This document shows positions 8,620-25,818 of a DNA stretch of 48,019 nt, in pieces. The translations under genes and the position numbers were made by a program. Source of the stretch: a bacterium (GTDB taxonomy: Bacteria; Patescibacteriota; Minisyncoccia; Phycocordibacterales; Zambryskibacteraceae); the NCBI GenBank assembly GCA_030650605.1, contig JAUSDP010000058.1, forward strand, positions 1-48,019. The letters are read 5' to 3'. The notes under the pieces were generated by a model. That model did no database searches. It was not told the DNA's origin and saw only the letters and a list, made by a program, of their open reading frames with translations. Within the stretch, counting starts at the first letter, position 1; each line of letters starts with the position of its first letter.

Positions 8620-8649
8620 AAATCGGCACCCCTTTCAGAGTGCCGATTT
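8620..8649. terminator. hairpin terminator overlapping the 3' end of the membrane-protein gene
   Basis: Perfect 10-bp arms AAATCGGCAC and GTGCCGATTT flank a 10-base loop. On the minus strand the hairpin runs into a T-rich stretch and includes the last codons and TGA stop of the 177-aa gene. On the plus strand it follows the PurD-like gene, so it can serve both. The same hairpin recurs at 10075-10104. Confidence 0.8.
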
Positions 8650-9168
8650 GACTGCACGGATGACCCACTCTGCCACCGTGAGACCGGTGAACACAATCAT
8701 CGTCCACCAAGCATTTGACAACACGACACTGGCTACAAATATTTGCCAGTCCCGTCGCGTCATGCCGTTATACTCGTGAGCTCCGCGTCTCATGTAGACA
8801 ACACAGATGAAGGGGTCCCACTTGACCGAAACAAAGAGGAATACTGCTAAATCCCCTTTGTTCAGGATCCAACACATCAGTCTGTGGAAAATCCCTTTCT
8901 CATCTCTTTTCTCCCTGACTTCCTTGAGAGACTCAATCCCGAGCCAGTCTGTTTTGCTCCAGTCGTAAAACAGAAGAGTGAGATAACAGGCTACTAGAGA
9001 AAGAAGCCACATGATCCCCGCTCCACAGAATAATCCAAAATACCAGATTACTGCTGGATAGAGCAGAAGATCAAACACTTTGACCATCAGGAAGTTGGCT
9101 ACATGGCCAATTCCCCACAGACCAATCCGTCTTTTCCAAGACAGAAGATTTTGAGAAGCCATTGCCAA
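8635..9168 (-). CDS. 177-aa multi-pass membrane protein, copy 1
   Basis: Hydrophobic segments lie near residues 17-45, 47-68, 103-122 and 145-170, giving about four membrane spans with Trp-rich ends. Polar connectors contain DWLGIESLKEV and the conserved MRRGAHEYNGMTRRDWQIFVAS, which is nearly unchanged in the second copy (10090-10623) and may be functional. The gene stands alone with a consensus promoter (9218-9247), a strong AAAGGAGG ribosome site and its own terminator. It looks richer in G+C than its neighbours. No family with known function is recognised. Confidence 0.8.
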   Translation of the reverse strand: MAMASQNLLSWKRRIGLWGIGHVANFLMVKVFDLLLYPAVIWYFGLFCGAGIMWLLSLVACYLTLLFYDWSKTDWLGIESLKEVREKRDEKGIFHRLMCWILNKGDLAVFLFVSVKWDPFICVVYMRRGAHEYNGMTRRDWQIFVASVVLSNAWWTMIVFTGLTVAEWVIRAVKSAL

Positions 9169-9309: not shown

Positions 9310-9810
9310 TTAATTCACCCCGGCGGTTTTCTTTATTTCGCAATTGTCTACGAAGTATCCAGTAGCTTGGCTACCACACACTCGTGTCTCCTCGACGGTG
9401 TGTGTGACGTACCTGCCTTTGGAGTCGAATTGAATGGTGACATTTTGAGATTCTCTATCTGACTTGGAGAAAGCTCCCATGATTCCAAAGACGCCCATCA
9501 TGCTTCCGTCTCTACCGGGGCCACCATGGGAGTTAAAGGTGTACGTCGCCATACTACCCCCATCACCTGTGGTGCTTGTCATCATGGGAGGTTTTTGGAG
9601 GATTCCATTCACCTCATCTTTTGTCATCCCCGGCTTTAGTTGTGCCAATTGACTAGTCTCGATCTTCTTCGTCTTGGTGACGAAGGAATTTTCCAAACCG
9701 CCTAGACCCACCTCCATAGCTGAAATGCCAAGCCCCATGGCGAGATTACCCGCAAGAGTAACACATCCAGGGAGAAAACCTGCTAGTAAAACAACAAGTG
9801 CGAGATGCAT
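9310..9810 (-). CDS. lipoprotein with BamE/SmpA-like domain
   Basis: The 166-aa protein starts with a lipoprotein-type signal peptide (hydrophobic HLALVVLLAGF, then LPGC with Cys16 as the likely lipidation site). Residues 55-105 fit the SmpA/OmlA (BamE-like) pattern: LAQLKPGMTKDEVNGILQKP, then a strand pair. Pro at -2 of the lipobox is unusual. BamE helps fold outer-membrane proteins in diderms, but CPR cells have no classical outer membrane, so another role or recent transfer is likely; the fold also occurs in other small lipoproteins. It has its own promoter, a good AAAGGAG site and its own terminator, and lies between the two copies of the membrane protein. Confidence 0.7.
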   Translation of the reverse strand: MHLALVVLLAGFLPGCVTLAGNLAMGLGISAMEVGLGGLENSFVTKTKKIETSQLAQLKPGMTKDEVNGILQKPPMMTSTTGDGGSMATYTFNSHGGPGRDGSMMGVFGIMGAFSKSDRESQNVTIQFDSKGRYVTHTVEETRVCGSQATGYFVDNCEIKKTAGVN

Positions 9811-10074: not shown

Positions 10075-10104
10075 AAATCGGCACCCCTTTCAGAGTGCCG
10101 ATTT
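10075..10104. terminator. hairpin terminator, second copy
   Basis: Identical arms AAATCGGCAC and GTGCCGATTT. As in the first copy, the stem includes the final codons and stop of the membrane-protein gene. Confidence 0.8.
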
Positions 10105-10623
10105 GACTGCACGGATGACCGATTCAACGAGAGTGAGTCCGGTGAAAACTATCGTCGTCCACCATGTATTTGACACCACGACACTAGCGATAAAAATTTG
10201 CCAGTCCCGTCGTGTCATACCGTTGTATTGGTGAGCACCGTGCCGCATGAAAGCAAAACATATGAACGGATTCCACTTTACCGAGATAAAGAGGAATACT
10301 ACCAACTCACCTCGGCTAAAAATCCACCCTATAATCCTGTGGAAAAGGCCTTTCCCCTCTCTCCCTTCTCCAACTTCTTTGAGAGCCTCAATCCCCAGCC
10401 AGTCTATTTTGCACCAATCATAAAACAGAATAGTGAGATAACAGACTAGTAGAGAAAGGCACCACATGATCCCAGCTCCATCGAACAATCCAAAGTACCA
10501 GATTACTGTCGGATAGAGCAGAAGATAAAACCCTTTGACCAAAAGAAAGTTAGCAGTATAGCCAACTCCCCAAATGCCTGCCTGGTTTTTCCAAAACTGC
10601 TTCTCTTGAATTGCCATAGCCAA
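10090..10623 (-). CDS. 177-aa multi-pass membrane protein, copy 2
   Basis: Same length as and about three-quarters identical by eye to the protein at 8635-9168, with the same four membrane spans. The strongest conservation is in DWLGIE-LKEV and in the GAH-YNGMTRRDWQIF block. It has a strong AAAGGAGG site 9 bases before ATG and a promoter at 10673-10702. Retention of two intact, co-oriented copies suggests dosage or specialised variants. Function is not recognised. Confidence 0.8.
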   Translation of the reverse strand: MAMAIQEKQFWKNQAGIWGVGYTANFLLVKGFYLLLYPTVIWYFGLFDGAGIMWCLSLLVCYLTILFYDWCKIDWLGIEALKEVGEGREGKGLFHRIIGWIFSRGELVVFLFISVKWNPFICFAFMRHGAHQYNGMTRRDWQIFIASVVVSNTWWTTIVFTGLTLVESVIRAVKSAL

Positions 10624-10702: not shown

Positions 10703-10776
10703 CAGGGTAAAATATATGCTATATTGGCAATGTTTGTTCGGGGCTTATAGTTCAGTGGCAGAACACAGCATTTTCA

Positions 10777-10887
10777 CCCCGTTAGAAATATGCGTACGGG
10801 CTCATAGTAAAGTGGTATTACGCGGCATTCGCATTGCCGAGGCCCGGGTTCAATCCCCGGTGAGTCCACAAGGAATTTCTAACGGGG
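10777..10887. mobile_element. inverted-repeat-bounded insert carrying tRNA-Ala inside tRNA-Glu
   Basis: Perfect 13-bp inverted repeats (10777-10789 and 10875-10887) bound 85 bases that consist almost entirely of a tRNA-Ala gene. There is no room for an intron-encoded protein or a group I or II core. The terminal-repeat core CCCGTTAGAA recurs at the ends of another short element at 44057-44121, which argues for a mobile or repeat family. No convincing target duplication is seen here beyond a shared CA. Confidence 0.6.
10798..10868 (+). tRNA. tRNA-Ala(CGC), nested inside the tRNA-Glu insert
   Basis: A complete cloverleaf: acceptor GGGCTCA/TGAGTCC, which includes the alanine identity pair G3:U70; anticodon stem CGGCA/TGCCG with loop TTCGCAT and anticodon CGC; T-arm CCGGG/CCCGG with loop TTCAATC; discriminator A. 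CCA is not encoded. It would read GCG codons. The reduced AlaRS in this window (28289-29458) is its expected partner. Confidence 0.9.
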
Positions 10888-10924
10888 CAAGTTGCTGAAA
10901 CGGCGGTCCGATTCCGCCTAAGTC

Positions 10925-10950
10925 CACTGCTTCGCCAAGGCTTCGCAGTG
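10925..10950. terminator. stem-loop after tRNA-Glu
   Basis: CACTGC and GCAGTG pair around an inner GCC/GGC pair just after the discriminator base. A long T-run is missing, so it may aid processing rather than termination. Confidence 0.4.
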
Positions 10951-10970: not shown

Positions 10971-11357
10971 TTAATACAGATTCTTGCCAGGATAACGAGT
11001 GCCTCTTTTTATAAAATGCTTTTCAATGTCTTTTAGACCAAACTTTTCCTTGAAGTATTTCAAAATAAAATCCGTATCCATACCATTTTTGCAAGTATAA
11101 ACATCAATACTAACAAAACCACGTAGAGGAAAGGTGTGAATACTAATATGACTTTCGGCGATGATGACGAAACCAGTCCAACCACCAGAATCTTTTTTAC
11201 CATTACTTGGAGCGTGAACAACTTTTGGCCCCAATAAAACTCTCATACCAAGTTTCATCGGTAACTCCTTTAGACATCGCTTTACTAAATGCTCATCATC
11301 GAGTTTATCTTTATTTCCACGATAACCATCAATCATTAAATGTTCTCCAAAATGCAT
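10971..11357 (-). CDS. speD: S-adenosylmethionine decarboxylase proenzyme (prokaryotic class 1b)
   Basis: The 128-aa protein has the self-processing motif ESHISIHTFP. By alignment with the Thermotoga enzyme, Ser69 becomes the pyruvoyl group, and His74 and Cys89 (VYTC) are the other catalytic residues. It makes decarboxylated SAM for aminopropyl transfer in spermidine synthesis, but no speE-like gene is in the window. Length fits the short alpha2beta2 class. It starts 8 bases after the dnaJ stop, at the end of the chaperone run. Confidence 0.92.
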   Translation of the reverse strand: MHFGEHLMIDGYRGNKDKLDDEHLVKRCLKELPMKLGMRVLLGPKVVHAPSNGKKDSGGWTGFVIIAESHISIHTFPLRGFVSIDVYTCKNGMDTDFILKYFKEKFGLKDIEKHFIKRGTRYPGKNLY

Positions 11358-11365
11358 TAGAGTTA

Positions 11366-12247
11366 TTATAACCCCAATTGTTTTAATTCTTCCACTACAT
11401 GGTGGGCTTCTTTAGAAAGATTTTCTGGAATTTGGATGGAAAGACGAATGTATAGGTCACCACGCCCTCCGGATTGACGAGTGTGTGCATTGTGAGGAAC
11501 CCCCTTACCTTTCACTCGTAAAATACTTCCGTGTTTGGCACCAGCTGAAATTTTCAAAGTAATCTCTCCATCAAGAGTATGGATAACTTTCTCTGCGCCA
11601 AGTAATGCTTCGGTCAGTTTAATTTCTAAATCCATTATCAAGTTGTATCCTTCTTTGCGTAGATACGGATGTTTCCTAACATGCACCTTAACGTAGAGAT
11701 CGCCGGGCACTCCACCCTCAAGAGCCTCGCCTTGACCATTGAGACGAATCATTTGACCATCGTCGATACCCGGTGGTACACCGATTGAAACCTCTTTTTG
11801 TTTGACAAACTTTGAATTAATAACCACCTTTCTCTCCGCGCCAAAAACTGACTCTTGGAAAGAGAGTTCGATATCCACAGCAATGTCACGTCCGCGCCTG
11901 ACACGACGACCGCCAAAGATACTCGATAGAATATCCCCTAAGTCACTGGTATCAAAACCTGCATTGCCGAAGCCGGAGAAATCGAAACCAAAACCGGATG
12001 GGTCTCCGCCATAGGCGGATCCGCCAGCCCGATTGGCGGAGAAGTCTCCTGATCCAAAGTTATCATATTCAGCACGCTTCTTTTTGTCGGAGAGTACGGA
12101 GTAGGCCTCACTTGCTTCTTTAAACTTCGCTTCATTACCACCGGATTTATCCGGATGATGAACGTGCGCAAGTTTACGGAAGGCCTTTTTTATTTCATCC
12201 TCATTTGCATTTTTATCAACTCCTAAAATTTTGTAATAGTCTTTCAT
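11366..12247 (-). CDS. dnaJ: DnaJ-type co-chaperone without zinc finger (CbpA-like)
   Basis: A J-domain (1-68) carries the DnaK-stimulating HPD at residues 31-33. It is followed by a Gly/Phe-rich linker (about 70-110) and two C-terminal beta-sandwich domains (about 118-290). The CxxCxGxG zinc repeats of classical DnaJ are absent, so this is the type II plan. The linker contains an in-frame pair of palindromes (12005-12040) encoding SANRAGGSAYGGD. Its ATG overlaps the dnaK stop by one base. Confidence 0.93.
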   Translation of the reverse strand: MKDYYKILGVDKNANEDEIKKAFRKLAHVHHPDKSGGNEAKFKEASEAYSVLSDKKKRAEYDNFGSGDFSANRAGGSAYGGDPSGFGFDFSGFGNAGFDTSDLGDILSSIFGGRRVRRGRDIAVDIELSFQESVFGAERKVVINSKFVKQKEVSIGVPPGIDDGQMIRLNGQGEALEGGVPGDLYVKVHVRKHPYLRKEGYNLIMDLEIKLTEALLGAEKVIHTLDGEITLKISAGAKHGSILRVKGKGVPHNAHTRQSGGRGDLYIRLSIQIPENLSKEAHHVVEELKQLGL

Positions 12248-14166
12248 TATTTATTATCTTCGCCCTTCTTTTCTTCCCCGCCCGAATGGCCGGAGTCATC
12301 CGGTCGGGCGGGTTTGACTTCAGCATCTTTAACTTCTGGCTCTCCGGCAGGTTTCTCAGCGGTAGGCGGATTTTTACTCATGTATTCTCCAATTTTTTGC
12401 AATTCGGTAGAAAGTGCGTCGGTAGCAGATTTAATTGAATCAATGGTACCACCCTCTTTCTCTTTCTTGAGTACTGCTATTTTTTCATTTACTGCATTTT
12501 TAATATCGTCAGGAATACTGGGCGCATCCTTCAGAGATTTTTCTGCCGTGTAAATTAGCTGTTCAGCAATATTTTTGGCATCAACCAAATCTTTTTTCTT
12601 TTGGTCTTCTGCGGCATTAGCCTCTGCATCTTTCTGCATCTTCTCGATCTCCCCCTTCGATAAACCAGAGCTAGCTTCTATCCTAATGGATTGTTCTTTA
12701 CTAGTAGTCTTATCTTTAGCTTTGACATTCAAAATGCCATTAGCATCAACATCAAAAGTAACTTCAATCTGAGGCATACCACGAGGTGATGGCGGAATAC
12801 CATCTAGAATAAAGCGACCGAGCGACTTATTGTCTGATGCCATGGTGCGCTCACCCTGTACAATGTGAATTTCGACTGAAGTTTGATTATCGGCAGCAGT
12901 TGAGAATATTTGTGACTTTGCTGAAGGAATGGTGGTATTTTTTTCAATCAACTTAGTTGCTACCCCGCCCATAGTTTCGATACCGAGCGAGAGTGGAATA
13001 ACATCGAGCAAGAGTACATCTTTCACATCACCACGAAGAATTCCTCCCTGAATAGCGGCGCCAAGTGCTACAACTTCGTCGGGATTGATAGATTTGTTCG
13101 GTTCTTTGCCGAAGAATTTTTTAACTGCTTCTACTATTGCTGGCATACGAGTCTGTCCTCCTACAAGAATCACTTCCTGTAAGTCACCAACTTTGAAAGG
13201 AGATGCTTCCATGGCACGTTTTGTAATCTCCATCGCCCGATTTACAAATTCTCCGGAGAGTTCTTCAAGCTTAGCTCTTGAAAGTTTCAGAAGTAGGTGT
13301 CTAGGACCTGATGCGTCGGAAGTGATGAAGGGAATATTAATTTCGGTCTCAGTCGCAGTAGAGAGTTCAATCTTGGCCTTCTCAGCAGTTTCGTCGAGCC
13401 TTTGAAGCGCTAAGGCGTCCGTTCTAACATCGATGCCAGATTCTTTTTTAAATTCATCTGCAATGTAATTAAGTACCTTCTGGTCAATATCTTTACCTCC
13501 TAAGTGAGAATCACCATCTGTAGATTTAACCTCAACCACATCGTCACCTACTTCAAGAATCGAGATGTCAAAGGTACCACCACCAAAGTCAAAAACGGCA
13601 ATTTTCTCATTCTTCTTTTTGTTAAAGCCGTAGGCCAGAGCCGCCGCGGTCGGTTCATTGATGATACGTTTGACATCTAGTCCAGCAATCTGACCAGCAT
13701 CCTTGGTGGCTTGACGCTGAGAATCATTGAAATAGGCCGGTACGGTAATGATGGCTTCGGTAATTTTTTCCCCAAGTTTGGCTTCAGCGTCCGTTTTTAG
13801 TTTCTGAAGAATCATGGCGGAAATTTCTTCCGGACGATAATCTTTCTCTGACATTTTCACTAATACCCCACCGGTAGGGCCGGCTTTCATTTCGAAAGGT
13901 ACTGTTACCTTATCCTTCTGAACGGCTGGATCAGCAAAAGTGTGACCAATGAAACGTTTGATACCAAAGATGGTGTTTTTTGGATTAGTAACTGCTTGAC
14001 GCCTGGCCAAGAGACCGACCAAGCGATCACCTGTCTTGGAGATAGCTATAATTGAAGGTGTGGTGCGTGCACCTTCAGCATTTTCTATAATCTTCGGCTG
14101 ACCAGCCTCCATCACTGCTACAGCAGAGTTTGTAGTTCCCAGATCTATACCAATGATTTTTGCCAT
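12247..14166 (-). CDS. dnaK: chaperone DnaK (Hsp70)
   Basis: Full-length 639-aa Hsp70. The N-terminus is [15 protein letters not shown], the phosphate loop is [14 protein letters not shown], and the adenosine loop is [12 protein letters not shown]. The interdomain linker [19 protein letters not shown], the substrate-binding beta domain and a helical lid follow. The unstructured tail (about 610-639) includes [13 protein letters not shown], encoded by an in-frame palindrome at 12277-12312. It lies downstream of grpE and overlaps dnaJ by one base. No HrcA/CIRCE element was seen upstream of grpE. Confidence 0.98.
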
Positions 14167-14179
14167 ATTTTTTTTCGTT

Positions 14180-14710
14180 TTAATTTTTAATAAATTGCCC
14201 TGTTTTTACTTTAGCTGGTCTAATAATTTTCCCCATTAGTATATAACCTTTTTGTATAACTTCAATAATTTTATGGTCTTTTTCTGACTCATCTGTAGAG
14301 ATAACTCCGATCGCCTCATGATACTTGGGGTCAAATATTTCTTCCATCGGATTTAATTCCTCTAAACCATTCTGTTTAAGGATAGAAAAAAACTGGTCAT
14401 AGACAGGCTTCACATCTTTGTTTCCATGAGCTAAAGCTATATTAAAACTATCTAGCACAGGAATCAATTCCTCAATAAGTGTAAGATTCGCAAATTTGAT
14501 AAATTCAACTTTTGACTCTTCATCACGGCGACGAAGATTTGCAAAATCCGCTTGTGCTCTCTGCCAGCCATCAAGGTATTCCTTGGTCTTGGTTTCTGCC
14601 TCCTTGAGTTTCTCACGAATCTTCTTAATTGCCACCTGAGCTGACTCTTCCTCCACCACGGAGTCATCTAGATCTGACCTGTCTATTTCGATATCATTTT
14701 CTTCCTTCAT
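14180..14710 (-). CDS. grpE: nucleotide exchange factor GrpE
   Basis: The 176-aa protein has a long N-terminal helix ([18 protein letters not shown]) and the GrpE core pattern [16 protein letters not shown], followed by a C-terminal beta domain with [16 protein letters not shown] and [21 protein letters not shown]. It releases ADP from DnaK. It is the first gene of the grpE-dnaK-dnaJ-speD run, with 13 bases to dnaK. Confidence 0.95.
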
Positions 14711-19378: not shown

Positions 19379-22300
19379 TCACGGCAAAGTAAATTCTTTC
19401 GGCGAACCTAGAAGAAGGGGGTTTGGGCCGGCGGTTCCAGAAGTTTCAATGCCATAGGCATTAATTGCATTGGCTTTGCCATCTCTAAATGAATTAGAGA
19501 TCGAAAAACTGAAACCGTGATTACCAAAGTAGCCAGTGGCATTATTTACATCGGGACGCGGAATATTTGCAGTGGCGACATAACCTGCGAATGTCCATTG
19601 ACCGGTGGCAGAGGGATAAACATAAAAATCAACTCTGATGGATTTAGAAGGGTCGTCGGGATCAAGCGCCCAGCCAATCACATTGCCGGAACCATCAACT
19701 AGATCTATCCAACCTAGCGGGGATTGATTTGCCAGCGTACTCGCCTGTGCAACAGATGAAGGAATTGAAGTATTGCCTACTGCATCATAAGCGGCGACAG
19801 TATATGAATACGCGGTTGATGGAGCAAGGCCGATATTTTGATACGAATTAGTATTAACATCGGCAATCTGAACTCCGTTTCTGAATATTTTATATCCGCT
19901 TATTCCTAACCCGCCGGCATTATCCGTAGAAACATTCCACGAAAGATTAATTTGCGAAGAAGAAATCACCGAAGCAGAAAGACCTGTAGGCACTGAGGGT
20001 TTCGTAGCATCAGGCGACTGAAGACCACTAGCTCTTTTTATCACTTCCACCGCCGTATTCATAAATGTATTCACAGTAGTATCCGGTAAAAGCTGATTTG
20101 GATAATTTCCCCAGCTTTCTAAAACAAAGTTGTCCGGGGATCCGCCTTTGATCTTATATAAATCCATAAAAGCGAGGGAATATGTTTTAAACAATCCGTT
20201 AGATTGATTCATTCCTTTTTCGGTATTAATAATGATTCCGAATTTAGCTTGATATAACTTTACTTGCTTTTCCAGATCAATAATTCTTTTTATCCAATCC
20301 ACGCTTTTCGGATCAAAATCTGCGTATGGAATGGGAGCAATTCCGGTAGAATAATCGTATCCGGAATCAACATGAATGAAATCTATATGCTCACCTACCG
20401 ACGCTGCCTTAGTAAATAATGCGTCGGTAACTGTTTTATAATCCGCGATATTGTAATAGGGCCAGCTTGGACCCCAATAAGGAGCAATGCCGCCATATCT
20501 TCGGTTTGGAAAATTATAAATCAGGCCGATTTTAATATCAGGATAAGCAGAATGTATTTTTTGCATTGAATCTATAACTTCCTTCACAGAGTCGGCGATG
20601 TTATATCCGCAGTTGGTTCCATAATCTCCGTTAGCTATTATGCGAGCAATGGGGTCATCCATCGCTAAATAATCCACTTTCCCGCCCGCATCATAAATTT
20701 TCTTGATTGTCGCCAGATCAAGCGCCGCACCCGTTTCCCCAGCTAACTTCATCGCGCAAAAATAGCTATCCCAGCCTTTCACGCCTGCTATTTCTAGCGA
20801 AGTTTTTATATTATATTTCTTTAGGATAGGAATTGCTTTCTGTAAATTCAAATCGCTTACGCCACTGGGAGACAGCGATCCACCATAAAACCCAAAAACG
20901 GCAGATTTTTGAAAAACACTTTGCAATAAAGCTTCGTCATTCCAAAACGTCTGGTAATCTGATGGGCTCGTTCTGTTCAGATGATCCGGAACTGAAAATA
21001 TATTCGGTACAAACCAAACTTCCTTTGTGGATACAGAAGGATTGATTGTAAAACTTTTTGTCGGCAGGCCCGTTACCGCATCTAACAACGGCGGGTTCGT
21101 TCCTCCCGCGGTGTCTATACCGTATGCGTATAGAGTGTGCGGTTTTCCATCGCGGTATTTTGTCGGTATTAGAAAATTGAAACCGTGGTCTCCGGGATAT
21201 TTGGTAACTTGATTTACATCCGGACGCGGTATGGCAGCTTTTACCACTCCGGCGTAATTAATTGACGCAGTGCCATCAATATAGAAATGAGCGTCGATGG
21301 ACTGCGAAGGTGCGTCGGGGTCTAAAGTCCACCCACCTATGTTTCCGCTTTGATCGAAGTCTCCTAAATAGCCGATTGGCTGGTGATTAAACGGCACCTT
21401 GCTTTCTATCCTGAAGTCAGTAAGCCACAAGTCTGCGATAACTGATTCTTTTGCTGTCCAGCCATGCGTTTCAGTGCCGATAAAAACGGCATGTGTTACG
21501 GTAGTGGGATTCAACCACCCGTTCGAAGGAGCTTTCATAAATCCACGAGAAACTAAGTTTTGAATAATTTTAAACCAATCAACCTCAATCTTTTTGGTAA
21601 CGCCTTTGGTTACAAATATTCCCATGGCGCGCCCATCCATAACAACATAATCCTCATAGCCCGGCACAGGATCAGATTGATTCCAAGCTTTCACAATATC
21701 AGCATCCGAATGCGCGTCACCCCAATTTGTTAAAGCGAAATTGATTTCTATCGCATGAGATTTGCCGTCCCACCACCCTTGCCAAGCGATGAACCCGCGC
21801 GATGCTCCATTTGGGGTGAAATCGTTATAACCTATAGTTGCACGAGTTGTAATATTATACGGTCCCGGTAACGGTCCACCGTTATGCCCGACATGATCCA
21901 TTAATACAAACCATGTCCATTCTCCCGCGCCACCGGGATGAGTAATATTGGCGAAATCGGTCTTTAAATTAACGGAATAATTTTTTCTGCCCAATTCGTC
22001 AATGTGCGGAACCCATTGCATGCTCAGTGGGCTCCCTGGCGCATTGATTGGAAAAGATTGGTTCACCGGTCCTACGGTAGAAATACCTAATTCCTTTTCA
22101 GACTCAGCCGCGACAGTCCATTTTTTTGCCTGGCCTACGCAATCTGAAGTGTCCTTATAATAGTTGACAACAGTAGCATCTACTGATTTAACACATCGCT
22201 TTGTTAAATTATAGTCCCACCCTGCTTGATAGCCGACGGGCAAAGGAGGCCACGGAAGACCGATAACCGGAGGATTAACGACAAAACTCTTTGTCGGGAG

Positions 22301-23542
22301 GCCGGTTGTTGCGTCTAACAACGGCGGATTTGTTCCTCCCGCAGTATCAATCGCATATGCGTAGAGGGTGTGTTGTTTTCCATCGCGGTATTTTGCGGGT
22401 ATCGGAAAGTTGAAACCATGGTCTCCGGGATATTTAGTAACTTGATTTACGTCAGGGCGCGGTATGGCAGCTTTTACAGCTCCTGCAAAATTAGCCGAGG
22501 CTGTGCCGTCTATATAGAAATGAACGTCGATGAATTGCGATGACACATCAGGATCTAATGCCCACCCCCCGGCAAATCCAGATGACAAAGGCTCGGCATT
22601 CAAATAGCCGGTTGGTTTGTTATTAAGAGGAACGGTAATGATAAAACTCTTTGTAAGCAAACCATTTGTCGCATCAGGTAATTGCGGATTCGTTCCTCCC
22701 GCAGTGTTTATGGCAAATGTATAAAGAATATGTTGTTTTCCGTCGCGGTATTTTTCCGGGATCGGGAAATTAAAACCGTGATTTCCGGTAACGTTCAGTT
22801 CGGCAGTTGTCAACGCTTTATTGACATCAGGACGCGATATGGCAGCTTTTACTGCTCCGGCAAAATTAGCTGACGCAGTGCCGTCAATATAAAAATGAGT
22901 GTCAATGGATTGCGAAGGCACATCAGGATCTAACGCCCAGCCGCTGGCATTTCCGTTTTGATCAACGCCCTCTAAATAACCTATTGGCTTGTTGTTAAGC
23001 GGAACAGTGATTGAAAAACTCTTTGTCAGTTGTCCGTTTGTTGCGTCAGGTAATTGCGGATTTGAGCCTCCAGATGTGTCTATGGCAAATGTGTAAAGAG
23101 TATGTTGTTTTCCATCACGGTATTTTGAAGGTATCGAGAAATCGAAGCCGTGATTTCCGGTAACTTTTAATACGTCATTTACATCCTGACGTAAAATATC
23201 GGCTTTGGTATAGCCAGCGAAATTAGCTGAAGCAGTACCGTCAATATAAAAATGCACGTCGATTGACTGCGAAGGCGCGTCAGGATCTAAAGTCCAGCCG
23301 TTGGCATTACCGCTTGTATCAATGCCGTCTAAATAGCCGGTTGGAGAAGCGCTTATCGCCGCCATCCCTACCTCAAACTCCCCGCTCCTATTCGCTACAA
23401 ATAAAATTCCCGCTAAAATACCGGCACATAAACCAATCGCAAGCCAAGCATGCCAAGAGCGTACGCGGGTTTTGCCGACAACAATGAAGTCTTTTTTAAG
23501 GGCGTCTAATACTTTCTCTACGCTGTGGTTTTGGTTTGGCAT
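19379..23542 (-). CDS. giant anchored surface protein: repeats, glycosidase-like TIM barrel, FnIII
   Basis: The 1387-aa protein has a short cytosolic start, a single TM at about 31-50 and a large outside part. Five copies of a roughly 110-residue module (GYL-x-GxxDxxG-GW-LDPD start, HFYIDGTASANFAG middle, RDGKQHTLY-YAIDT end) lie at about 23015-23345, 22640-22985, 22270-22615, 21045-21375 and 19385-19710. Between modules 3 and 4 is a beta-sandwich-like region. After module 4 a barrel-like region (20050-21000) has KVDYLAMDDPIA and GEHIDFIHVDSGYD, possible acidic active-site strands of a glycoside hydrolase. A fibronectin III domain (19735-20010) follows. It is probably an adhesin or glycan-acting protein on the cell surface. 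Its TM anchor is almost the same as in the next protein. Confidence 0.8.
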   Translation of the reverse strand: MPNQNHSVEKVLDALKKDFIVVGKTRVRSWHAWLAIGLCAGILAGILFVANRSGEFEVGMAAISASPTGYLDGIDTSGNANGWTLDPDAPSQSIDVHFYIDGTASANFAGYTKADILRQDVNDVLKVTGNHGFDFSIPSKYRDGKQHTLYTFAIDTSGGSNPQLPDATNGQLTKSFSITVPLNNKPIGYLEGVDQNGNASGWALDPDVPSQSIDTHFYIDGTASANFAGAVKAAISRPDVNKALTTAELNVTGNHGFNFPIPEKYRDGKQHILYTFAINTAGGTNPQLPDATNGLLTKSFIITVPLNNKPTGYLNAEPLSSGFAGGWALDPDVSSQFIDVHFYIDGTASANFAGAVKAAIPRPDVNQVTKYPGDHGFNFPIPAKYRDGKQHTLYAYAIDTAGGTNPPLLDATTGLPTKSFVVNPPVIGLPWPPLPVGYQAGWDYNLTKRCVKSVDATVVNYYKDTSDCVGQAKKWTVAAESEKELGISTVGPVNQSFPINAPGSPLSMQWVPHIDELGRKNYSVNLKTDFANITHPGGAGEWTWFVLMDHVGHNGGPLPGPYNITTRATIGYNDFTPNGASRGFIAWQGWWDGKSHAIEINFALTNWGDAHSDADIVKAWNQSDPVPGYEDYVVMDGRAMGIFVTKGVTKKIEVDWFKIIQNLVSRGFMKAPSNGWLNPTTVTHAVFIGTETHGWTAKESVIADLWLTDFRIESKVPFNHQPIGYLGDFDQSGNIGGWTLDPDAPSQSIDAHFYIDGTASINYAGVVKAAIPRPDVNQVTKYPGDHGFNFLIPTKYRDGKPHTLYAYGIDTAGGTNPPLLDAVTGLPTKSFTINPSVSTKEVWFVPNIFSVPDHLNRTSPSDYQTFWNDEALLQSVFQKSAVFGFYGGSLSPSGVSDLNLQKAIPILKKYNIKTSLEIAGVKGWDSYFCAMKLAGETGAALDLATIKKIYDAGGKVDYLAMDDPIARIIANGDYGTNCGYNIADSVKEVIDSMQKIHSAYPDIKIGLIYNFPNRRYGGIAPYWGPSWPYYNIADYKTVTDALFTKAASVGEHIDFIHVDSGYDYSTGIAPIPYADFDPKSVDWIKRIIDLEKQVKLYQAKFGIIINTEKGMNQSNGLFKTYSLAFMDLYKIKGGSPDNFVLESWGNYPNQLLPDTTVNTFMNTAVEVIKRASGLQSPDATKPSVPTGLSASVISSSQINLSWNVSTDNAGGLGISGYKIFRNGVQIADVNTNSYQNIGLAPSTAYSYTVAAYDAVGNTSIPSSVAQASTLANQSPLGWIDLVDGSGNVIGWALDPDDPSKSIRVDFYVYPSATGQWTFAGYVATANIPRPDVNNATGYFGNHGFSFSISNSFRDGKANAINAYGIETSGTAGPNPLLLGSPKEFTLP

Positions 23543-23586
23543 GGTGAGTCGTTTATTTATTAATATTTATTTGACCTTACTTCCGC

Positions 23587-25818
23587 TTACTGACCCAAAT
23601 TTCCTTGTCCCATATATAATCCCCAGCTTCTGATGTCCCAGCACCAACCGTGTGAATAAAATGTGGAAAAGTTTGATTTAAATGGCGTGATATTTCCATA
23701 CTGATCGGTAAGAAAAGCCGGATTGTGAATAACAACATTATTTTCTGGGCTGTCTATAGAACCTATTTTCGTCCAAGTACCGGAATCAAGATTAGATATA
23801 GAATAAGTTGAAACCGGTCCCATGTGCGGGAATTGGGATGGCTGAACGCTACACTGCCTCGTATCGTCAATTTTATCCATAGCCATAAACCATTTACCAG
23901 TTGAGTAGTCATACGCAAATGCGGTTGAACCAAAACGCGGTTTTCCCGACATCCAATCGCCTTGAGAAAGACCTTTGTAACTTATCGGCTTTGGCGCTGA
24001 AAAATTTATTCCATCTAGAGTTTCTGCGTAATAGATATCTTGATAAATCATACTTGAAAAATAAGGACTGGGATCATGATTTGAATAAAAAACATATAGA
24101 TGAGATTTTCCATCCACACTATAAGCCGAGGGTATTCCCGCGCCGTATACTTTTTCACTTAATACCTTAGGATTAAGTACCGGGTTCGGATATTTAACCC
24201 AATCAATTAAGTTGTTAGAAAAGGCTACTCCGATTCTGCTCTTCGCCCACTCATGGTCCGTACCTGTATAATAGAGTGCGTATCCATATGTTTGATTATT
24301 ATATTTGAACTCTCCTCGCACCACTGCCGGATCGCCAGCCTGCATGCTATCCCATCCGGAAACGCTCGGACTTAATATTTTCTGCGGCGCACTTAAAAGA
24401 GTTTTTGATTCCATATTGTAAGTTACATGGTAAATATTGTCGGAATTCCTTCCTTGGCTGTTAGTCGTCATTCGGTCCCAAAAAATATGCACCTTGGGAT
24501 ATTCTCCTTCCAAGGCAATGATCGCTGGCCCGTAATCCCATGCATCGGGCAAATCCAGAACCTTAGTTAATGAATTGTATCCTGAGAGAGTCGAAGATGT
24601 GCTTTCGGGCGGCATATAATGCCAATATAAATCTATGTAGCCATTACTTGGCACATTGATGGTAGCGGAATTGCCAGTCGTCTTCGGGCCGTCATGGCAA
24701 TCAATATTATTTATGCACGCAGTATAGCTGACAGTCCATCCTTGAGGCACGCTTACAGAAATCGTATGGATTCCGGCAGAAATGCTCTCGGAATAATATG
24801 GATTTGAATTTACTTCCTTTCCGTCAATAAAAACTTTTTCGTTTTGAAGTTTCGTTTGATCTGAGCCCATCAATTTAAATCCTTGAACCCTCCCTGGAGC
24901 CAAAGGCGTATAATGCCACCACAAATCAGCATATCCTCCAGACGGCACATTTACTGTAACGGAATTGCCGAGTGTTGGAATGTTGGTATGGCACGTTACG
25001 CTGTTTGTGCAAAGTGTATAGCCTACACTCCAGCCAGAAGGAACGATAACCGATACAGTATGTTTGCCAGCGGAAATATTGTTGAAAAAATATGGATTTG
25101 CGCTTGTGGGAGAATCGCCGTCTAGGCTTACTAGTTCGCCTCCCGGAGGCGTAACATTTTGATTGCCAGGCATTTTAACTTTAACACCTTGAATATTGCC
25201 GGGGGGAGCCACCAAAATTATCTCAGAAAGTTGCAAATAATAATTATTGTAATCATCAACACCAAGTTTGGTCGCATTAAATCTGATATTAGTCACGCCG
25301 GGTAAAGGCTCAAAAAAGAAATCCTGCCAATCTGTATCGGCAACATAATTAGTGAAAGTTTGACCGGGAATATTGGTAAAACTTGAACCATTGTTAGTAC
25401 TATATTGCAAAGAGAAATTCACAGGAAACGCAAAAACTTTTCCGTTCACGATGCGCGGTAAAATTCTCACTTTATGTATTTTGCTGGGCGAAATAGCAAT
25501 AGAAATCCATTGGCTTGAATTTGCGGAGGATTGAATTTTACTTGAATAGAAATTGCTCAAATTTCCATCTATCGCGTTACCAGGTGCGAGTCCTGATATA
25601 TAACTTCTAGCAGTGGCTGTCCCCCATGAAGCCGCCATCCCCGCCTCAAATTCCCCCGAGCGGTTCGCGACGAATAAAATTCCAACCGAAATACCAACGC
25701 TTAAGCCGATAATCAGCCACGCATGCCAGGAGCGCACGCGAGTTTTCCCGACAACTACAAAATCTTTCTTTAAGGTTTCTATATCCTTCTCAATCTCTTT
25801 ATTATGATCTGTTTCCAA
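23587..25818 (-). CDS. anchored surface protein: discoidin-like, two PEGA-like repeats, beta-propeller
   Basis: 743 aa. The TM anchor (33-52) and its flanks (VVVGKTRVRSWHAWL, VANRSGEFE-GMAA) match the 1387-aa neighbour. A coagulation-factor-5/8-type (discoidin) domain follows (about 58-205, GNAIDGNLSNFYSS to LQLSEIILV). Two repeats of about 95 residues with a Cys pair and a WWHYTP-type end come next (210-303, 305-402). The last 330 residues resemble a five-bladed glycosidase propeller (DPAVVRGEF, YYTGTDHEWAKSRIGVAFS, YVFYSNHD), as in GH43/GH32-like proteins. It is probably a surface glycan-binding or glycan-cleaving protein. The two genes are co-oriented, 44 bases apart. Confidence 0.75.
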   Translation of the reverse strand: METDHNKEIEKDIETLKKDFVVVGKTRVRSWHAWLIIGLSVGISVGILFVANRSGEFEAGMAASWGTATARSYISGLAPGNAIDGNLSNFYSSKIQSSANSSQWISIAISPSKIHKVRILPRIVNGKVFAFPVNFSLQYSTNNGSSFTNIPGQTFTNYVADTDWQDFFFEPLPGVTNIRFNATKLGVDDYNNYYLQLSEIILVAPPGNIQGVKVKMPGNQNVTPPGGELVSLDGDSPTSANPYFFNNISAGKHTVSVIVPSGWSVGYTLCTNSVTCHTNIPTLGNSVTVNVPSGGYADLWWHYTPLAPGRVQGFKLMGSDQTKLQNEKVFIDGKEVNSNPYYSESISAGIHTISVSVPQGWTVSYTACINNIDCHDGPKTTGNSATINVPSNGYIDLYWHYMPPESTSSTLSGYNSLTKVLDLPDAWDYGPAIIALEGEYPKVHIFWDRMTTNSQGRNSDNIYHVTYNMESKTLLSAPQKILSPSVSGWDSMQAGDPAVVRGEFKYNNQTYGYALYYTGTDHEWAKSRIGVAFSNNLIDWVKYPNPVLNPKVLSEKVYGAGIPSAYSVDGKSHLYVFYSNHDPSPYFSSMIYQDIYYAETLDGINFSAPKPISYKGLSQGDWMSGKPRFGSTAFAYDYSTGKWFMAMDKIDDTRQCSVQPSQFPHMGPVSTYSISNLDSGTWTKIGSIDSPENNVVIHNPAFLTDQYGNITPFKSNFSTFYSHGWCWDIRSWGLYMGQGNLGQ

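Follow-up and report, generated by a model that had tools for sequence, protein, structure and literature searches.

A complete tRNA-Ala(CGC) gene lies within the anticodon loop of another tRNA gene, between inverted arms, in the window (the whole 48,019-nucleotide stretch of Zambryskibacteraceae DNA that was analysed), where the outer gene occupies positions 10741-10776 and 10892-10926. We consider it probable that a short hairpin-bordered insert disrupted the resident tRNA-Ala(CGC) gene and now does its work, and that the locus is one of a class, recurrent in Patescibacteria, whose replacement tRNAs serve the same amino acid. The nest structure is real and far beyond chance: the 187-nt nest folds 4.9 standard deviations better than shuffled sequences (z-score -4.9), and nests of this anatomy, with arms that covary, are found again in many genomes. 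In the following, G000 is the genome of the window itself, G003 and G010 are congeners, and numbers beginning with L denote inspected loci. The features of the nest and its surroundings are as follows.

10741-10772, + strand: 5' half of the outer tRNA-Ala(CGC), common to the uninterrupted gene of G003, which reads GGGCTTATAGTTCAGTGGCAGAACACAGCATT-CGCA-TTGCTG.. at the syntenic site
10773-10776, + strand: left border of the insert, TTCA, which together with the rest of the insert takes the place of CGCA of the empty site
10777-10789, + strand: left inverted arm, CCCCGTTAGAAAT
10790-10797, + strand: spacer from the left arm to the inner tRNA
10798-10868, + strand: inner tRNA-Ala(CGC), complete, with the anticodon at about 10830-10832 (Rfam RF00005, 64.2 bits; ARAGORN)
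10869-10874, + strand: spacer from the inner tRNA to the right arm
10875-10887, + strand: right inverted arm, ATTTCTAACGGGG
10888-10891, + strand: right border of the insert, CAAG (CRRG in other nests)
10892-10926, + strand: 3' half of the outer tRNA-Ala(CGC)
10971-11357, - strand: S-adenosylmethionine decarboxylase gene (PF02675), the first synteny anchor
11366-14710: DnaJ (PF00226/PF01556), DnaK (PF00012) and GrpE (PF01025), beyond the decarboxylase gene

An earlier note, made from the sequence alone, had described a complete tRNA-Ala(CGC) nested in the anticodon loop, and its coordinates are borne out, as is its perfect 13-bp stem, formed by the exact inverted match of the two arms. ARAGORN and Rfam both recognise the inner tRNA-Ala(CGC) as the only tRNA in the whole window. 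Removal of 10777-10891 (115 nt) yields a perfect cloverleaf with 7/7 acceptor, 5/5 T and 5/5 anticodon pairs, which ARAGORN types as tRNA-Glu(TTC), as the earlier note had proposed; this much of its reading holds, and the identity of the gene does not.

The outer gene is a tRNA-Ala(CGC) and not a tRNA-Glu: its intact syntenic counterpart in the congener G003 is a tRNA-Ala(CGC), and the G3:U70 pair is kept. In G003, the order GrpE, DnaK, DnaJ, S-adenosylmethionine decarboxylase and then a convergent tRNA is as in the window, the chromosomal flanks also match, and the uninterrupted tRNA-Ala(CGC) is 99% identical to the outer halves outside the anticodon. The empty site of G003 reads ..ACAGCATTCGCATTGCTGGAACGG.., and the filled site of the window reads ..ACAGCATT-TTCA-insert-CAAG-TTGCTGAAACGG.. 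The insert thus put 119 nt (10773-10891) in place of the four nucleotides CGCA, starting at 10773 rather than 10777 because TTCA belongs to the new sequence, and the apparent Glu anticodon TTC is therefore part of the insert border. The TTCA border is also found in broken Val, Pro and Ala-TGC tRNAs. G3:U70 is the alanine identity pair for AlaRS; it had been noticed in the inner tRNA and is present there, and the acceptor stem of the outer tRNA has it too. The outer halves display neither the descent from tRNA-Glu nor the Glu acceptor identity of a functional tRNA-Glu(UUC), and the empty site of G003 rules this candidate out. A second probable empty site is provided by G791, where the gene is intact (L149), compared with G790, where a nest (L137) stands between identical neighbours.

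The true tRNA-Glu(TTC) of the genus is a separate sequence near tRNA-Ser(CGA) and/or tRNA-Val(GAC) in at least seven congeners. A DNA search for such a gene, the check suggested by the earlier note, found none in the G000 draft assembly. The likely cause is an assembly gap, since tRNA-Ser(CGA) is also missing from the G000 tRNA list and a contig ends about 300 bp away from tRNA-Val(GAC).

Sequence comparison also indicates that the inner and the outer tRNA are different lineages of tRNA-Ala(CGC). The inner tRNA, the sole CGC alanine tRNA found in G000, matches the outer at 70% identity and a tRNA-Ala(CGC) that stands free in G010 at 96%. Across eight nests compared, the window's and seven others, inner and outer are 64-77% identical, and L057 mirrors the window, its outer being 90% identical to the window's inner and its inner 82% identical to the window's outer. 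In some other nests (L037, L004), the inner tRNA and the outer halves have almost the same sequence. For L202, the idea that the inner element is a copy of the outer plus its flank was dropped, the common flank being the insert's own spacer repeated.

Nests of this kind recur across Patescibacteria. On conservation in relatives, which the earlier note had asked about, inspection gave nests in 58 genomes, and the locus itself is an empty site in G003. GTDB genomes scanned for the nest pattern gave 18 loci, of which about a dozen are true nests, all in Patescibacteria, including Brennerbacteria, Yanofskybacteria, Doudnabacteria, Moranbacteria, Giovannonibacteria, Niyogibacteria, Gribaldobacteria, Levybacteria and others. 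A stricter first pattern had given 14 matches in 397 genomes, with the window's nest the only one recognised and L052 missed through one fixed base. Scanning tRNAs for inverted flanks revealed further nests, so that G000 itself contains at least two more, an Ala(TGC) nest on contig C34 and an Ile(GAT) nest on contig C108. The Ala(TGC) locus (L170, G000:C34:11800-13400, reverse strand) comprises one intact tRNA and at least three successive broken 5' halves; its 3' halves are decayed, and more hairpin inserts sit in D- and T-loops. The tRNA-Ile(GAT) nest on C108 (L171, G000:C108:1500-2900) and one on G108:C3 (L106), from two families of the order, have the arms and secondary inserts in common, which means that the Ile nest is old or was transferred.

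A covariance model was built from 14 nests; on loci already collected it scored Ala and Pro nests at 89-124 bits and free tRNAs at no more than 82. Several nests whose spacers are longer or whose tRNAs are of other types (L068, L056, L046, L106) fall below the nest range and would be missed. At a cut-off of 85 bits, it matched 80 of the 384 genomes of the class, which is a raw rate at that cut-off. A recognisable broken outer tRNA of the same amino acid was present at 73 of the 90 inspected loci (58 genomes); most nests come from this model, trained on nests, and the counts give no frequency for other kinds of insert. With an arm score of at least 8, the inner tRNAs are Ala (CGC, TGC, GGC), Val (CAC, TAC, GAC), Pro (CGG, TGG, GGG), Gly (CCC), Thr (CGT, TGT) and Ile (GAT), and the arms of one Met nest are perfect and shorter. 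Nests of several layers (tRNA onions) exist. Two tRNAs with perfect inverted flanks of 13-14 bp and no recognisable outer, a tRNA-Asp (L007, G000:C83) and a tRNA-Thr (L096, G416:C15), are possibly free arm-tRNA-arm units, or else chance or terminator repeats.

The nests follow common rules. Inner and outer tRNA have the same amino acid in 60 of 61 strong cases, against 18.7 expected and a maximum of 30 under label shuffling, and in all 13 weaker cases; they have the same sense in 74 cases, opposite sense in none, with 8 undecided. Both rules could partly reflect selection for survival. The arms vary in sequence among nests and stay complementary nevertheless (91.7% paired, 41 cells changed on both sides), with none of 500 shuffles pairing as well and slid controls pairing at 32-55%; this complementarity may result from how the arms arise rather than from selection on the fold. 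Among nests with IR of at least 8, the left borders are TTCA (32) and CTTG (7) and the right borders CAAG (22), CAGG, CGGG or TGAA (9), so that reversed borders, CTTG..TGAA, occur as well. Arms bordered by TTCA and CRRG number 45 in 739 kb, 44 of them enclosing a tRNA, compared with 3, 0, 0 and 0 for four control borders; the 739 kb are loci chosen for their tRNAs, and the count is not a genome-wide rate. The insertion sites are mostly in the anticodon loop and sometimes in the D-loop (L224, L228), where one copy of the same arm family (L202) has no tRNA cargo. About 2-7 nt of target are lost, and no target-site duplication is seen at the nests, the window having TTCA on the left, CAAG on the right and CGCA at the empty site.

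The most likely consequence is that the inner tRNA-Ala(CGC) replaces the outer gene, which is most likely dead. The earlier note had offered a dead outer gene as one of its options; the dead gene would be the tRNA-Ala(CGC), not the tRNA-Glu it had named. We propose that a unit made of TTCA, a 13-nt arm, tRNA-Ala(CGC), the complementary arm and CAAG entered the anticodon loop and broke the resident gene. The inner tRNA would be a working gene, transcribed in sense, probably from the resident promoter, and freed by ordinary RNase P and 3' processing, and the outer halves would be a dying pseudogene that yields no tRNA product. Inserts with variable self-complementary arms would land in anticodon loops, sometimes in D-loops and sometimes repeatedly at one locus, the insert being, or having been, mobile DNA that acts via a single-stranded hairpin. 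The anatomy, the empty site, the rules of same amino acid and same sense, the covariation of the arms, the recurrence and the decay of several outer genes are established. The outer halves are broken or re-invaded in L066, L067, L068, L106, L137, L046 and on C34, and several others, including the window's, are intact except for the loop, which fits a recent event and also a retained function.

Constant borders on unrelated tRNAs, the two border orientations, the copy without a tRNA and the divergence between inner and outer speak for a mobile unit. We tentatively suggest, with more doubt than confidence, that Patescibacteria harbour mobile elements of about 110-130 bp with a tRNA as their sole gene, which home via a single-stranded DNA hairpin into the loops of cognate tRNAs and replace them, sometimes in nested fashion. 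Each of 10 genomes tested has Y1 transposases, and searches around them and around unpaired copies of the arms found no transposase or integrase tied to the arms.

The nests may alternatively have arisen in situ, an explanation we regard as possible and rather unlikely: a palindrome in the loop would provoke template switching, or unequal exchange would take place between tRNA copies, whether resident, arisen by duplication or acquired through natural transformation; products with an intact inner gene would be kept by selection. The agreement in sense and amino acid, almost without exception among clear cases, would then be expected, as would the near identity of inner and outer halves in L037 and L004; L202, L170 and L109 have left or right units repeated in tandem, which resembles unequal crossing-over, and the border orientation varies at constant tRNA sense. 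Against this, the inner and outer tRNAs of the window and seven other nests share only 64-77% identity, and the arms with TTCA/CRRG borders behave as a defined unit across unrelated tRNAs, one copy of which lacks the tRNA cargo.

Membership in a known REPIN or MITE family, with capture of a tRNA by chance, appears unlikely. The size of about 115 nt, the inverted arms and the Y1 transposases would suit it, and some nest-bearing genomes contain dispersed palindromes of 32-135 bp, CCCCGTTAGAAG..CTTCTAACGGGG, that are very like the arms of the window and mostly have direct 4-bp TNNA flanks. The nest flanks, however, are not direct repeats, arm sequences differ among nests, and nearly all units found are inside a cognate tRNA. 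Inspection of 18 Y1 loci found no such hairpins near the Y1 genes, and in G000 the sequence TCTAACGGGG occurs only at the two nest arms and, unpaired, at one other place; a search for the arms as a dispersed repeat of G000 yielded nothing beyond this unpaired match. The palindromes are 65-135 bp long in G415-G418 (L064, L066, L075-L101), with a variant of about 32 bp in G419 (L081), and two of those in L064 lie where the discriminator base meets CCA in tRNA-Ala genes.

The earlier note had further considered that an unusual excision might free two tRNAs from one transcript, so that the insert would be a nested intron, removed from the outer pre-tRNA with joining of the exons. We find this improbable. 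Excision at 10776/10892 would give a perfect cloverleaf with a 7-nt loop, the arms are stacked beneath the anticodon stem, and the TTCA and CRRG borders are conserved in the manner of splice sites. The joined product, however, would combine G3:U70, the identity pair of alanine, with UUC as its anticodon, where the empty site gives CGC as the true anticodon; the joined loop has 9 nt in L052, L058 and L202; the outer halves of L066, L067, L106 and L137 are broken though borders or arms are kept; and reversed CTTG..TGAA borders are also found. RtcB (PF01139), for which the earlier note had recommended a search, is absent from G000 (97% complete) and from 9 of 11 other genomes, that is, from 10 of 12 tested, and splicing is unlikely because of this absence and because several outers are decayed. 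Anticodon stem and arm are separated in the predicted fold by a helix of just 3 bp, with loops of 1x1 and 2x1, and the bulge-helix-bulge motif (3-nt bulge, 4-bp helix, 3-nt bulge) is not predicted at the junctions; together with the absence of RtcB, this led us to reject an intron of that type. The judgement of the earlier note that the insert is too short for a self-splicing intron is right. Rfam gives no family except tRNA in the window at gathering thresholds, and a group I or group II intron or other known RNA was rejected on this ground.

That both tRNAs are simply disrupted, or that the nest is an artefact of assembly or binning, is scarcely credible: the G000 bin is large (1.14 Mb, compared with 0.4-0.6 Mb in congeners, in 110 contigs), whereas the nest lies well within a contig of 48 kb and has conserved gene order to one side, its inner tRNA scores 64 bits, and comparable nests exist in many independent assemblies. 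Some tRNAs of G000 are nearly duplicated (Ile-TAT on C50 and C78), and the bin may mix two close genomes.

Other features of the window include two similar 177-aa reading frames without a Pfam match (8635-9168 and 10090-10623), adjoined by a BamE-like lipoprotein gene (9310-9810); this side of the locus differs from G003. The lineage is thought to have no outer membrane, and a BamE-like lipoprotein is therefore unexpected. Very large adjacent proteins with a common N-terminal segment (VVGKTRVRSWHAWL..) are encoded at 19379-25818, the first of which contains repeated GYLDG..GNANGW.LDPD units; they are probably surface proteins.

Dozens of Patescibacteria genomes have a tRNA gene lodged within another tRNA gene of the same amino acid, a recurrence that suggests a route, not described before, by which essential tRNA genes are replaced. 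In the open-licence literature searched on nested tRNA genes, CPR tRNA introns and REP elements in Patescibacteria, we found no earlier description of the arrangement. An essential tRNA gene that is present in one copy should be difficult to replace, and the nests, whose model matches up to a fifth of the sampled genomes of the class, place the new copy inside the old gene. If mobile, the inserts would be among the smallest elements known with a host function, self-rescuing parasites of tRNA genes; if formed in situ, they would represent a mutational pathway for tRNA gene turnover. Nests also provide direct before-and-after pairs for tRNA replacement in mostly unculturable bacteria. For annotation, excised outers would give false tRNAs, here a false tRNA-Glu, and tRNA callers overlook the broken halves.

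Compared with known systems, the nest insert has the architecture of a REPIN or MITE and spares host function like an integrative element, and it departs from each in defining features. REPINs are REP doublets that form hairpins and are associated with RAYTs (PMC3116915). With REPINs and MITEs the insert shares short, non-autonomous DNA, inverted arms, the potential for a single-stranded hairpin, tag-like borders and the presence of Y1 transposases in the genomes. Unlike them, it holds an entire tRNA and was found nearly always within a cognate tRNA gene, its arms are unrepeated in G000, and it has neither target-site duplication nor RAYT linkage; no inverted doublet repeated in extragenic space was found in G000, and no copies beside a cognate RAYT (Y1) gene at the 18 Y1 loci. 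The terminal inverted repeats of a MITE or DDE transposon are present as 13-bp perfect arms that covary across nests; target-site duplications are absent from the nests, whereas the palindromes of G415-G418 mostly have TNNA duplications.

Some integrative elements target tRNA genes by means of tyrosine recombinases (reviewed for archaea in PMC8371274). The nest insert resembles integrative elements of this type in targeting tRNA genes, including the anticodon loop, with tRNA function preserved. Such elements have lengths of kilobases and an integrase gene of their own, and they restore the tRNA through identity with one of its halves. The nest insert, in contrast, has about 119 nt with a tRNA as its sole gene and thus no site-specific integrase, and it replaces the whole tRNA by a divergent copy.

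Archaeal and eukaryal tRNA introns at position 37/38 (PMC4090602), together with the group I introns of bacterial tRNA genes (PMC3984707), share with the nest insert the position in the anticodon loop and a hairpin on the anticodon stem. The insert differs from introns in having no ribozyme match, no RtcB, a wrong joined anticodon and a complete tRNA inside. Split and permuted tRNA genes (PMC4033280, PMC3978253) likewise have tRNA halves apart and complementary sequence beside the break. In the nests, by contrast, the halves are those of a formerly intact gene, several of them decayed, with an intact copy between them. Intervening sequences of rRNA are hairpin inserts in loops of a structured RNA that are excised by RNase III, and the fragmented rRNA still works. 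In the nest, the insert destroys the decoding loop and brings a replacement with it.
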